NCBI RefSeq assembly: GCF_036345015.1
Contig: NZ_CP084098.1
Coordinates: 2,803,326 to 2,867,325, forward strand
From: Cyanobacterium sp. Dongsha4
Lineage (GTDB): Bacteria > Cyanobacteriota > Cyanobacteriia > Cyanobacteriales > Cyanobacteriaceae
Direction of reading: 5' to 3'
DNA: 64,000 nt
A program made the position numbers and the translations under genes. How positions within the stretch are numbered: the stretch's first letter is position 1; every line of letters starts with the position of its first letter. Of this stretch, positions 22,548 to 27,836 are shown one piece after another. A model generated the notes under the pieces. The model was not told the origin of the DNA. It was given only the letters and a program-made list of their open reading frames with translations, and did no database searches.

Positions 22548-23048
22548 TGTTTTATTTATCTTTACAGTAACCTATCTTAACATTAAGAAATATTAAAATC
22601 TGTTAATTAATATTAACTTATCTTCGGGGTAATCATTGAAAGTAATTAGTAATGGGTCTTATAAGTTAAGGTGATGATGGAGTAAAAATAGGGGATTAGG
22701 GTGTTAGGGGCAATACCTTCACCAATTTTACATCAATAAAAAAGCGATCGCACCTCTACAAAAACTCGATCCCGAAGGGATCTGCTACGCAGCACGCACC
22801 CTCCGCAAAAACCCGATCGCACCTCTACAAAAACCCGATCGCACCCCCCACAAAGCTCGATCACATCCTCCACAAAAACCCGATCGCACCTCTACAAAAA
22901 CTCGATCGCACCTCCCCCACAAAACCCGATCACACCTCCACAAAACCCGATCGCACCTCCCCCATAAAACTAAATCACTTTCAGATTGTATTCTTAAAGA
23001 TATTGGTATATTATTAATGAATATGTCGATATAACTCCCTAAAATCTG
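22548..23048. other. Intergenic region dominated by a HIP1 tandem array
   Basis: A 501-bp region upstream of the FtsK/WXG locus. The array occupies 22743-22970. The remaining 70 bases before 23049 (TATTGGTATATTATTAATG) are AT-rich and probably carry the promoter of the downstream genes. A short 93-codon minus-strand frame through the array is an artefact of the repeat. Confidence 0.6.
22743..22970. repeat. Tandem array of about nine HIP1-containing 21-24-bp units
   Basis: The unit is CGATCGCACCTCTACAAAAACC with variation. Nine copies run head to tail; six keep an intact CGATCGC and others read CGATCAC. The second unit is interrupted after CGATC by about 24 bases that include CCGAAGGGATC and GCTACGCAGCACG, a sequence resembling a small palindromic element common between cyanobacterial genes. 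Intergenic HIP1 arrays of this regularity are uncommon, as HIP1 normally occurs singly. Confidence 0.85.
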
Positions 23049-23578
23049 ATGGAAGGCAAGCACAAATACCTACACTATCAAGACCTCAAAGAATATTATG
23101 ATTGTTTAAAGATAATTGACGATCAAATTAATCAATTATCTTCTGCTAAACAGGATTTGTCTTGGTGTGAAAGTAAGTTACAGGAAGGTGAGAAGTTAGT
23201 TAAATCATTTGGTTTTACTAATCAGAACATAATAAACTTTCCAGAAGTCGCTCTTTACTCAAAAAAATTGAAAAAGAAAAAGTTCAGAAGATTCTAAGTG
23301 CTATAAAAGAGGATGGACTGTTAATACTTGAAGGTCAGGAAGGTATTGTTGTATCAAATGAGCAAATAAATTCTTATGTGTTGTCTAAACCAATTTTATT
23401 AGAAAAATTAAAGCAATTAACAACAGAAAAATTATTGTTACAAATTGGTATTGTTATTTATTCTATTGTTTATGTAATCGTCATTGCAGGGCTATTATAT
23501 ATTGCTGTATATGTATTGTTATTTATATTTGCTCTTTGGGTTTTAGGTGCTATACTATCAGGGGCTTCAAAAAGATGA
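23049..23578 (+). CDS. Coiled-coil/membrane protein of the FtsK-WXG locus, interrupted by a -1 frameshift
   Basis: Two open frames join into one protein of about 176 residues if the ribosome (or the true sequence) shifts -1 at the A7 run 23261-23267, read TCA AAA AAA TTG in the first frame. Frame one codes 73 residues, helical and charged (HYQDLKEYYDCLKIIDDQI). After the shift, IEKEKVQKILSAIKEDGLL leads to a linker and a strongly hydrophobic end (about 130-170), one long or two short membrane helices. The second frame is open across the whole join and has no good start of its own. Its TGA overlaps the ATG of the FtsK-like gene (ATGA), so the two are translationally coupled. It could supply the membrane anchor that the ATPase lacks. 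Family not recognised. Confidence 0.65.
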
Positions 23579-26500
23579 AAAAATCAAACAAATCTAGCTC
23601 CTCCGAATACTTTGACTTTTTTAATTTATTTGGACAACTAAAGAAAAAGAATGAAGAAATAAAAGAAATAAACAAAAAACTTGCTGATGACAAAAATATA
23701 TTATATCTAGAAAATACAGAAATACCAAGATTATTGAATGTTATTTCTGAGTGTAAAAATCGAATTATCAAATTCTTTTCTGAATTGAATGAATATACAA
23801 AGTTAGCACATAAATTTAAACAAGAAAAAGAAGATGAATTAAAACAAATATTTCATGAAAAATCAGCAAATATTAATCAAATAATCAACAGAATTTCTAT
23901 TTTAGATGATCCTAATGCCTCTATTAATCTATTAACTTTTCATTGGGATGATCCTTTATGGATTCCTTCCGAAAATGATCCCTCCCATTGGCAACCTCAA
24001 ATCAATAATTTAGTCCCTGATATTGTCCGCATTGGAGAAATTGAACTAAATAACAATTATAACCCCCTCCGATTTCCCGCCCTTGTTCCCATTCGTGACC
24101 TTTCCAAGCAATTACAGGGTAGTAAATCTGGACACATTGCCTTTTATTCTCAGGATGCCAACTCTCGTCAAACCGCCCTTTTAGCCATACAATCCCTTGC
24201 TTTCAGAATGATTAGTACCTTCCCCGTGCGAAAATTTAAAGGCATCTTTATCGATCCTGTGGGTATGGGGGACACCTTTCCCTTTGGTAATTTACACGAC
24301 TTTATCACCAGCCAAAGAATCTATACCCGTGCTGATGACATTCGGGAACAATTACGGGGTTTAACCGAACACATTGAGCAAGTAATTCAAAATTATTTAG
24401 GCAGTAATTACCCCACCATCGAAGATTATAACCTTGAAGCAGGGGCAATTTCCGAGCCTTATCGTTACTTATTTATCGCTGATTTTCCCACAGGTTTTGA
24501 TCAACGTGCCTTAGAAGACTTAAAAAGTATTCTCCTCAACGGTCCAAAAACAGGGGTTTATGTCATTCTACACATCGACAAAAATTTAGAAAAGCCCAGA
24601 AATTTCGATTACCAAACCTTTAACGATTTCTGCTCTATTATCAATAAATTTACCAATAATTCTCAGTATCAGATTTATTTTCCCAATATTTCTCAGCCTT
24701 TCTCTTTGATTTTAGATAAACCTCCAGCTAACGAACTGTTTAACCAAATGGCAGAAGCCATTAATCAGGCAATCAGAAACGTCAAAGTTGATACCGTCGC
24801 CTTTTCCAAACTTTATCCAGATGTTAATTGGTATGCTGACAGTCGCAAAGAAATTAGAACCCCCATTGGTTTGATGGGTGCAAAGGATAAACTAGAATTT
24901 TGGTTCGGGGAAAATGAAGACGGAGGCATCGTTAGTAATGGTTTATTAGCAGGAAAACCCGGTGCTGGTAAAAGTTTTACTCTCCATGCCATTATTCTTA
25001 GTTTAGCTATGCAATATTCTCCCGATGAATTGGAATTATATTTATTAGATTTTAAGCAGGGAGTAGAATTTCAAATTTATGTCGATGCAGAAAAAGGCGA
25101 AAATCGTAATTCTAGGGAAGAATTAGACGAAACAAGGGCTTTACCCCATGCGAAAGTTATTTCCATCGAGAGCGATCGAGAATTTGGCTTAAGCGTCTTA
25201 GAATATGTTAATCAACAAATAGAAGAACGCAGTAAACTATTTAAGTCCGCAGGTAACTTTGAAAAAATCTATGAATACCGCAACGCTACAGGCAATAAAT
25301 TACCTCGTATTTTGGTGTTAATCGATGAGTTTCAATATATGTTTCAAGAAAGTGATCAGATTGCCCAACGCCTTAACGTAGTCATGGAAAATATAGTAAG
25401 ACAAGGACGAGCCTTTGGTATTCACTTATTAATCGCCTCTCAATCTCCCAATGTGTCTAATATGAATCGCAAAATCTATGACTTTCTCGATTTACGCATG
25501 GCGTTACAAATGCCTCAAAACACCGCAGGTTATGTATTAGATGAAGGTAACACTGACGCTATTGATTTATTAGATCGACCAGGTAAAATGATTTATAACC
25601 GCAACTTTGGCAACAAAAACTATAACGACATTGGGCAAGTAGCAGACATCTCCGCCGAAGAAAGGCATAAGGCTTTGATTAACATTCAAAACGTGGCAAA
25701 AGAAAGACAATATCAACGCCCCGAACCGCTAGTGTTATTCTACGGCTCAAAACCGACTCAATTAAAAGATAATCGCCAATTAGTGCAGTTAATGAAAATG
25801 AATCAATGGTTATCTTTAAGGGAATTAAACAAAAAAGTAATTAAAGATCCTGATTGGATTGTACCAGAAAGCCCCGGAGTATTTTGGTTAGGTGAACCCA
25901 TGCGCATCGGCAATCACACTCAAGGAATATTTCGCCGTCGCCCTCGTAGTAATCTGTTATTAATAGGAAATTCGGAAGAAACCATTTTCGGCATTATTGG
26001 CGGTATTTTAATTAGTTTAATCCACTGCTATCAACCGCAAAAAGCAAAGTTTAATATCATTGATTTATCCATCGAAGATGAGGATAATTATTGGACAGAA
26101 ATGACCGTTAATTTTAGGGATATGTTTGCTGAATTTTTCCCTGTTAAAATTGCTAAAAAATATAGTGATAAAGAACAACAAATAATTAAAGCTGAAGCCC
26201 TATTAAAAGAAACTTTTGAAGAATTTGAAAGAAGATTAAAACTAAGAGATGAAAACCCAGAACTTAACCCCGATGAATTAGGAGAATCATTATTTTTTGT
26301 CTATGCCATTGGAGGAATAAATAAAGCCTCAAATTTACGCCCTGTCATGGGAAGGAGAGAAGAAGAACCTTCCGAGGATGCTCAAAAAATTCTGGAGTTA
26401 ATTTCTAAAGGTTCAGAGTTAGGTATTCATACTATTTTATGGTTAGAAGATATGAAAGGTTTTGCCAAACTGAGTGCTAATAATCGCCAGTGGTTAGGAA

Positions 26501-26715
26501 ACTTTGATTTGCGAGTAGGTTTAACCATGTCAGGGGATAATTCCCGTTTATTATTAGGAGAATCTTTTGCAGAAAAATTACCCCGATTAAGGGCATATTT
26601 TAAGGATGATTCTTTAAGCATCGATTTAGATAAATTTAAACCTTATGCTGTCCCCAGTAAAACAGAAATGCTTGAATATAAAAATAATTTTAAGAAAAGG
26701 AAATCGCCCGAATAA
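23575..26715 (+). CDS. FtsK/SpoIIIE-type ATPase of EssC/EccC architecture (type VII-like secretion motor)
   Basis: 1046 residues from ATG 23575, chosen because it overlaps the preceding stop as ATGA; a TTG 13 codons upstream is less likely. An N-terminal coiled coil (about 20-110) is followed by three tandem ATPase-like modules. Module 1 (about 140-400) lacks a P-loop; module 2 (about 430-690) is canonical, with Walker A GKPGAGKS at 460-467 and Walker B LVLIDE with D584-E585; module 3 (about 770-1030) is degenerate (GNSEET at 798). Three ATPase units with only some active is the layout of EssC/EccC, the motor of WXG100 (ESX) secretion. Unlike those it has no membrane helices or FHA domains; the coupled upstream protein has membrane helices. 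A DNA translocase role is less likely, as there is no gamma domain. Two WXG100-like genes follow. Confidence 0.85.
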   Translation: MKKSNKSSSSEYFDFFNLFGQLKKKNEEIKEINKKLADDKNILYLENTEIPRLLNVISECKNRIIKFFSELNEYTKLAHKFKQEKEDELKQIFHEKSANINQIINRISILDDPNASINLLTFHWDDPLWIPSENDPSHWQPQINNLVPDIVRIGEIELNNNYNPLRFPALVPIRDLSKQLQGSKSGHIAFYSQDANSRQTALLAIQSLAFRMISTFPVRKFKGIFIDPVGMGDTFPFGNLHDFITSQRIYTRADDIREQLRGLTEHIEQVIQNYLGSNYPTIEDYNLEAGAISEPYRYLFIADFPTGFDQRALEDLKSILLNGPKTGVYVILHIDKNLEKPRNFDYQTFNDFCSIINKFTNNSQYQIYFPNISQPFSLILDKPPANELFNQMAEAINQAIRNVKVDTVAFSKLYPDVNWYADSRKEIRTPIGLMGAKDKLEFWFGENEDGGIVSNGLLAGKPGAGKSFTLHAIILSLAMQYSPDELELYLLDFKQGVEFQIYVDAEKGENRNSREELDETRALPHAKVISIESDREFGLSVLEYVNQQIEERSKLFKSAGNFEKIYEYRNATGNKLPRILVLIDEFQYMFQESDQIAQRLNVVMENIVRQGRAFGIHLLIASQSPNVSNMNRKIYDFLDLRMALQMPQNTAGYVLDEGNTDAIDLLDRPGKMIYNRNFGNKNYNDIGQVADISAEERHKALINIQNVAKERQYQRPEPLVLFYGSKPTQLKDNRQLVQLMKMNQWLSLRELNKKVIKDPDWIVPESPGVFWLGEPMRIGNHTQGIFRRRPRSNLLLIGNSEETIFGIIGGILISLIHCYQPQKAKFNIIDLSIEDEDNYWTEMTVNFRDMFAEFFPVKIAKKYSDKEQQIIKAEALLKETFEEFERRLKLRDENPELNPDELGESLFFVYAIGGINKASNLRPVMGRREEEPSEDAQKILELISKGSELGIHTILWLEDMKGFAKLSANNRQWLGNFDLRVGLTMSGDNSRLLLGESFAEKLPRLRAYFKDDSLSIDLDKFKPYAVPSKTEMLEYKNNFKKRKSPE
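26666..26694 (+). repeat. Direct repeat copy 1, end of the FtsK-like gene
   Basis: A 29-bp segment that codes for EMLEYKNNFK near the ATPase C-terminus. It recurs as 28 bp at 27183-27210 with one substitution and one T missing. The two copies bracket the nucleotidyltransferase gene. Confidence 0.75.
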
Positions 26716-26724
26716 CAATTAAAT

Positions 26725-26746
26725 TCTCCCCTTTGTTTAAGGGAGA
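26725..26746 (+). terminator. Hairpin after the FtsK-like gene
   Basis: TCTCCC (26725-26730) pairs with GGGAGA (26741-26746) around a 10-base loop, ten bases after the stop codon. A T7 run follows about 20 bases later. It may end transcription of the ATPase gene before the inserted cassette, or just be a small palindrome brought in with it. Confidence 0.4.
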
Positions 26747-26808
26747 TTAGCGGGGATAAAATTCTTTTTTTAAGAAGAGTTAAGACGGATAAAATTGGAA
26801 CTATTATT

Positions 26809-27102
26809 ATGATGAATAAACAACAAGTTATCGATATTATCAAAGTACATCAAACACAAATCCATGATTTTGCCGTTAAAGAATTGTTTTTATTTGGTTC
26901 AGTGGCAAGGGGAGAAGAAACAGAAGATAGCGATGTTGACTTTTTAGTCAATTTTAATCAACCAGTAGGATTATTTACATTATTGAAATTAAAAAGTTAT
27001 TTAGAAGATTTATTAGGGTGTTCCGTTGATATTGGTACATCTGAATCCTTACGTCCTCATCTAAAAGAAACAGTATTAAAGGAGGTTATTCGTGCCATTT
27101 AA
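26809..27102 (+). CDS. MNT-type nucleotidyltransferase (MntA-like antitoxin), orphan
   Basis: 97 residues. The minimal nucleotidyltransferase signature GSVARGEETEDSDVDFLV (about 31-48) has the catalytic GS and paired aspartates, with a third acidic residue in CSVDIG near 76. Such proteins pair with HEPN RNases as toxin-antitoxin modules, where the MNT protein AMPylates and silences the HEPN toxin. The expected HEPN gene is only a stub here: a GTG start with an excellent Shine-Dalgarno overlaps this stop but reads five codons. The cassette sits between the FtsK-like and WXG genes and is bracketed by a direct repeat, so it looks like a later insertion. A second ATG directly follows the first. 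Confidence 0.85.
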   Translation: MMNKQQVIDIIKVHQTQIHDFAVKELFLFGSVARGEETEDSDVDFLVNFNQPVGLFTLLKLKSYLEDLLGCSVDIGTSESLRPHLKETVLKEVIRAI

Positions 27103-27109
27103 GCAATAA
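27092..27109 (+). pseudogene. Stub of a coupled downstream gene (probable HEPN toxin)
   Basis: AAAGGAGG (27078-27085) lies six bases before a GTG at 27092 that overlaps the end of the MNT gene. The reading MPFKQ ends at TAA 27107-27109. HEPN partners of MNT genes often begin in just this overlap, so this is best read as the truncated start of a lost toxin gene. The stub is too short to prove identity. Confidence 0.4.
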
Positions 27110-27182
27110 GAAATATGGTAATTTATTAATCGCTTTAGCAGATTTAAGCTATAAGCCTTCTCAATTTATTGCAAGGCAACGA

Positions 27183-27241
27183 AAATGCTAGAATATAAAA
27201 ATAATTTAAGGGATATTTTAAACTATCAGGGGAAAATTTGA
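27183..27241 (+). pseudogene. Displaced C-terminal tail of the FtsK-like gene (with direct repeat copy 2)
   Basis: Read in the frame of the ATPase, this piece gives KMLEYKNNLRDILNYQGKI and a TGA at 27239-27241. The first eight residues duplicate the ATPase end at 26668-26691. The TGA overlaps the ATG of the first WXG-like gene (TGATG), the kind of junction expected of an original ATPase-WXG gene pair. It has no start or expected function on its own. Confidence 0.6.
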
Positions 27242-27513
27242 TGACACAGGATATTGATATTGATATTGATGAATTAAAGGAATTTATTGATGCTTTACAA
27301 TATTTTCAATATGTCATGAGCGATCGATTTCAAGCAGTAGAATCTGATTGGAATCGTTGCGATGAATCTTGGGAAGGGGAATCAAAAAAACGTTTTACTG
27401 ATGATTTTGAAGAAATGCACAGTCAAGTGAAAAGAACTTTATTAGCAGGAGAAGATGCCTTGGAATGGCTAAAAAAATATTATCAAATATTAAAAGATTT
27501 TGAAAAATTTTAA
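27241..27513 (+). CDS. WXG100-like small secreted-protein candidate 1
   Basis: 90 residues from ATG 27241 (a TTG one codon earlier is possible). Two helices flank a W-x-G turn in ESWEGESKKRF near 43-53, followed by an aromatic residue, exactly as in ESAT-6/CFP-10 hairpins. The whole protein is helical and acidic with no signal peptide. WXG100 proteins leave the cell through FtsK-type motors as folded dimers. The exact YxxxD/E export tail is absent, although the end is rich in Y, D and F (KKYYQILKDFEKF). Good ribosome-binding AGGGG lies eight bases before the start. It probably dimerises with the next gene product, which starts 20 bp later. Confidence 0.75.
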   Translation: MTQDIDIDIDELKEFIDALQYFQYVMSDRFQAVESDWNRCDESWEGESKKRFTDDFEEMHSQVKRTLLAGEDALEWLKKYYQILKDFEKF

Positions 27514-27533
27514 TAACAATATAGGAGTAAAAA

Positions 27534-27836
27534 ATGGCTGAACAAACAAAATTTAACCGACAAGATGCTGAAGATTTATTAAGACAATTACAAGAGTTTA
27601 ATTACATTTTAAACGATGAATGGGTAAGAGTTTTAAATAAATGGAGAAATCTTGAATTATGTTGGCGTGACAAACAATTTGAAGAATTTGAGCCTCTTTT
27701 TCAAAAATTTAAAGCTAACTATCGAGATGCCGAATATAATAGTGAAGAATTTATCCGTTTTATTAAAGAACAAATAGCCATCAGTGAAGAAAGACAAAGA
27801 GTATTAAGTAATTTTCAGAGAATTAGAAGCTCATAA
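27534..27836 (+). CDS. WXG100-like small secreted-protein candidate 2
   Basis: 100 residues, the classical WXG100 size. A helix (QDAEDLLRQLQEFNYILND) leads to a turn LCWRDKQFEEF near 43-53, where the glycine of W-x-G is replaced by aspartate, followed by a second helix to the end. It has no signal peptide and no cysteine pair. The strong ribosome-binding site AGGAG stands nine bases upstream. Side by side with the first WXG-like gene, it suggests a heterodimer like EsxA-EsxB. YNSEE near 73-77 has YxxxE spacing but lies mid-helix rather than in a tail. Relationship to known families should be treated as fold-level. Confidence 0.68.
   Translation: MAEQTKFNRQDAEDLLRQLQEFNYILNDEWVRVLNKWRNLELCWRDKQFEEFEPLFQKFKANYRDAEYNSEEFIRFIKEQIAISEERQRVLSNFQRIRSS

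Follow-up and report, generated by a model that had tools for sequence, protein, structure and literature searches.

The gene of a membrane protein (the anchor) that precedes an EccC/EssC-like ATPase in Cyanobacterium sp. Dongsha4 has probably undergone a recent one-base slippage deletion, a reading to which we give a probability of about two in three. The sequence was taken from assembly GCF_036345015.1, contig NZ_CP084098.1, forward strand, positions 2,803,326-2,867,325; the window is this whole stretch of 64,000 nt. The features of the locus were as follows.

23049..23297, forward strand: frame-0 open reading frame (ORF; 82 aa), covering the anchor protein's N-terminal helix and its linker, then about 10 out-of-frame residues.
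23261..23267, forward strand: A7 run and point of the frame break, one base shorter than in the congener G014.
23267..23578, forward strand: remainder of the anchor protein in the -1 frame, ending with TGA, assigned by homology and dN/dS.
23575..26715, forward strand: EccC/EssC-like FtsK/SpoIIIE ATPase of 1046 aa, from an ATG that shares bases with the stop of the anchor gene (ATGA).
27238..27513, forward strand: WXG100-like small protein, with matches to Pfam WXG100 and TIGR03930 that are both below cut-off.
27534..27836, forward strand: another small protein gene in the cluster, without a family match, with homologues 3' of the ATPase in relatives.

The sequence and its frame break were read directly. 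The A7 run at 23261-23267 was flanked by TC and TTG, and the codons of the upstream ORF were TCA AAA AAA TTG (23259-23270), so that the A_AAA_AAA heptamer was in phase, as the first-pass annotation had described. The rest of that description also held: the -1 frame read ATT GAA AAA GAA AAA and was open across the membrane helices as far as the TGA at 23576-23578, this TGA overlapped the ATPase ATG at 23575 in an ATGA junction, and the second frame was poor in starts, the first being a GTG at 23378, 111 bases past the run. Stops bounded the possible join of the two frames to 23219-23295 (the frameshift box), and the hydrophobic membrane stretch of the -1 frame lay at approximately 23444-23566. 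Homology to relatives was found on both sides of the run, in frame 0 before it (the ORF at 23049..23297 being homologous to G014, G008 and others) and in the -1 frame after it. This homology in two frames is the part that exceeds chance, and the heptamer alone is not special. No second copy of the anchor was found in the genome. Just upstream of the anchor gene (22795-22960) there was a tandem array of CGATCGCA-like units of about 22 bases, and the locus of G008 had a similar upstream array with 21-base units (L008 8556-8736).

The first-pass annotation had proposed a comparison with homologous loci, in which the genes proved to be uninterrupted at the same codon. The congener G014 had TCA AAA AGA ATA GAG at the homologous codon, the near relative G008 had A9 (CAA AAA AAA ACA GAC) within one ORF of 1206 aa, and the frame was continuous in the protein alignment for the remaining relatives aligned there. 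These uninterrupted frames favor an indel or an error. Compared with G014, the window lacked exactly one base at the run, and the 3.1-kb ATPase had no indels. The simplest history would be the loss of one A from an A8 ancestor in the lineage of the window, the A8 being deduced from the alignment with G014 and seen in no sequence.

Both sides of the run had been under coding selection. The dN/dS against G014 was 0.13 before the run and 0.30 after it in the -1 frame (23270-23446), compared with 0.83 and 1.01 in the two other frames after the run; for the ATPase it was 0.14 from codon 123 onward. The low dN/dS on either side of the run indicates that both pieces were one coding gene. Extra decay past the run was not detected in the window compared with G014: where the congeners differed after the run, the outgroup residue was matched by the window only at 6 positions and by G014 only at 7. 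The break is therefore either recent or artefactual, or else the ribosome still reads across it, and the absent extra decay cannot separate error, young mutation and recoding.

In relatives, the product of the gene upstream of the ATPase had one or two membrane segments at its end. Tychonema, Microcoleus, Arthrospira, Chamaesiphon, a Xenococcaceae genome and others had distinct genes for anchor and ATPase; G008, G016, G240 and Calothrix had a fusion of the two, and in G099 the ATPase was present with no recognisable anchor gene in front. Weaker matches of the fused query (L005, L011-L020) did not by themselves count as homologues, and G240 and G285 were retained because an ATPase of the family accompanies them. 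In the model of the Arthrospira homologue (pTM 0.37, moderate confidence) the first helix was followed by a linker, then by a second helix of great length and by a final one, and this all-helical model serves for rough placement only. In the protein alignment the break of the window mapped near the linker, and the frame-0 product would thus keep the first helix only. The anchor protein matched no family in Pfam. Its weak matches in NCBIfam and PADLOC were taken as chance.

In the ATPase tree the window, G014, G008 and G020 formed one clade, and the anchor was broken in three of these four members (all except G008). The G014 anchor had lost 65 nt between short direct repeats, much of the membrane segment included, and a TAG followed this deletion. 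In G020 (MAG JAABRE010000112.1, L021 4075-7640), an exact -1 joined the anchor part to the frame of the ATPase, and the break fell on an A8 run (L021 4407-4414; zero frame ATA AAA AAA ACA), about 40 codons downstream of the site in the window. Outside the clade, the anchor regions that were read in relatives showed no break. The independent damage to the anchor in G014 and G020 makes a real loss in the window plausible. The deletion in G014 (L007 6587-7049) leaves the anchor part in the frame of the ATPase, with a single TAG between them.

The ATPase matched Pfam PF01580 (E 6.7e-22) and NCBIfam EccCa (E 4.8e-30, below cut-off), and reached the cut-off of no curated EccC/EssC family model in NCBIfam (104.9 bits against a cut-off of 509.15 for TIGR03924; 85 bits against 778.4 for TIGR03928). 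Among curated families, the type VII secretion proteins EccC and EssC were closest, at scores well under the cut-offs, and EccC, YukB and EccC5 were PDB chains among its sequence matches. The predicted structure of the ATPase (mean pLDDT 41.8) did not have the quality needed for a fold search. The product of 27238..27513 scored 26.6 bits with Pfam WXG100 (gathering score 27.3) and matched TIGR03930 with E 1.9e-5, below cut-off. The flanking ORFs of the window yielded no other identifiable type VII component. The locus resembles type VII EccC/EssC in that an FtsK/SpoIIIE ATPase goes with an N-terminal membrane segment (as one fused protein in G008) and in its putative WXG100-like neighbour, and differs in that the ATPase is below the NCBIfam cut-offs and the anchor often has a gene of its own.

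The ATPase of the EccC-like system (23575-27836) was present in 13 of the 293 genomes of the order (E 1e-100), in scattered cyanobacteria. In the part of the literature covered by a limited search, there was no paper about such an EccC-like/WXG100-like system in cyanobacteria. A HepT-like gene was located 3' of a nucleotidyltransferase (MntA-like) gene in G014, G008 and G020. In the window the HepT-like gene was mostly deleted (27106-27240), the nucleotidyltransferase (26809-27102) was left without this neighbour, and HepT-like genes elsewhere in the genome were more distant ones only.

In the proposed sequence of events, a short A-tract of the anchor gene would have lost one A (approximately A8 to A7) recently, most likely by replication slippage, and the deletion would be present in the DNA of the organism. 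Translation of the anchor would stop past the first helix and the linker; neither the membrane segment nor the long second helix would be made, save for a leak via low-level slippage, and the ATPase would retain its own ATG. A recent one-base deletion is argued for by the unbroken frame of the relatives at the A7 codon, by the single base missing against G014 next to an ATPase without indels, by the dN/dS of both pieces compared with that of the wrong frames, by the independent anchor breaks in G014 and G020, by the lack of a second anchor copy, and by the lack of recoding stimulators (below). Counting against it, the absence of extra decay would also be expected from an error or from a fusion that is still translated, and G020 too requires a shift of exactly -1 at an A_AAA_AAA in phase. 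The oligo-A frameshift of chloroplast atpB (PMC8254509) is alike in that the mutation struck an oligo-A run and the gene is otherwise intact, but it is an insertion for which partial correction was shown, and the window has a deletion. In the E. coli assay of the same study, single-A deletions kept only about 5% of the activity (PMC8254509).

A sequencing or assembly error, with one A dropped from the record and the gene of the organism intact, is a clearly less probable explanation that nevertheless keeps some weight. The homopolymer position, the intact relatives at the A7 codon and the lack of extra decay downstream of the run are all consistent with it, and BLAST-validated singleton frame transitions are expected to be mostly errors (Antonov et al., PMC3711429). 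The break resembles the singleton frame transitions and hypothetical pseudogenes of prokaryotes in that study (Antonov et al. 2013, PMC3711429) in being validated by homology at an unconserved site, and differs from them in that the clade relatives of the window are broken elsewhere in the same gene, with recurrent loss. The other homopolymers of the window look sound, its intact genes holding 40 A/T runs of 7-10 bases in any phase, which argues against an error, although homopolymer counts inside intact ORFs pre-select sound runs. The non-homopolymer deletion carried by the congener in the same gene also argues against an error, as it makes gene loss plausible.

Switching or tuning of the anchor of the EccC-like ATPase by A-tract slippage within this small clade, either as recoding or as contingency, is improbable. 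Both the window (A7) and G020 (A8) would make the anchored form only by slipping exactly -1 at an in-phase A_AAA_AAA, and in G008 the codon of the window holds an in-frame A9; however, the sites differ, and the anchor version of the congener had no run of at least 6 A's.

The interpretations listed in the first-pass annotation fared unequally: an indel or a homopolymer error was favored by the uninterrupted relatives, and programmed frameshifting was not supported, its site being unconserved and its stimulators absent. Programmed -1 ribosomal frameshifting at A_AAA_AAA, which would set the ratio of soluble to membrane form, is quite improbable. It agrees with the in-phase heptamer and open -1 frame, with the coding selection on that frame, and with the -1 join of G020 at an in-phase A_AAA_AAA as well. 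A programmed frame transition, however, requires a site conserved in the gene cluster (PMC3711429, Table 1), and the site of the window was a singleton, with the congener and other relatives in one frame and the G020 site displaced. No Shine-Dalgarno-like stimulator was present (AAG only in the 18 bases tested upstream), and the downstream structure was ordinary, with fold z of -0.24 and -0.29 and eighth place in a ranking against 17 control heptamers. In E. coli, A_AAA_AAA is a weaker frameshift site than A_AAA_AAG (PMC5009743).

The heptamer itself was frequent, with 19 in-phase A_AAA_AAA within the intact ORFs of the 64-kb window, and in an AT-rich cyanobacterium such an in-phase heptamer is weak evidence for recoding. 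The A7 count of the window was 81, rarer than in dinucleotide shuffles (mean 138). Three of the nine coding-strand A-runs of at least 8 bases in intact genes would leave an in-phase A_AAA_AAA after the loss of one A, and the phase of the heptamer is therefore weak evidence.

Transcript slippage at the A-tract, repairing the frame in some of the mRNAs, is very improbable. There is an A-tract at the break, and a precedent exists in tssM of Citrobacter rodentium (PMC4256274), where a poly-A tract likewise interrupts the gene of a secretion-type membrane protein; the tssM tract, however, is A11 with slippage shown experimentally, and that of the window is A7. Homopolymers of transcriptional slippage usually have at least 8 bases and often 9 (PMC3711429, PMC1088944), a length below which the A7 falls, and the site is not conserved. 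Phase variation, with tract length toggling the anchor on and off within populations, is the least probable, in that the variable run at the codon (A9 in frame in G008 vs. A7 out of frame in the window) and the two clade members broken at A-runs are set against a short tract, a G020 break that lies elsewhere and a congener break that is a deletion between repeats.

As a frame break, the break of the window is ordinary. The best reading of the recent one-base deletion, taken together with the breaks in its relatives, is that the anchor gene is recurrently lost in the clade of the window, G014, G008 and G020. The EccC-like cluster would then be one in which the anchor has been lost repeatedly within a single cyanobacterial clade, with purifying selection maintained on the ATPase.
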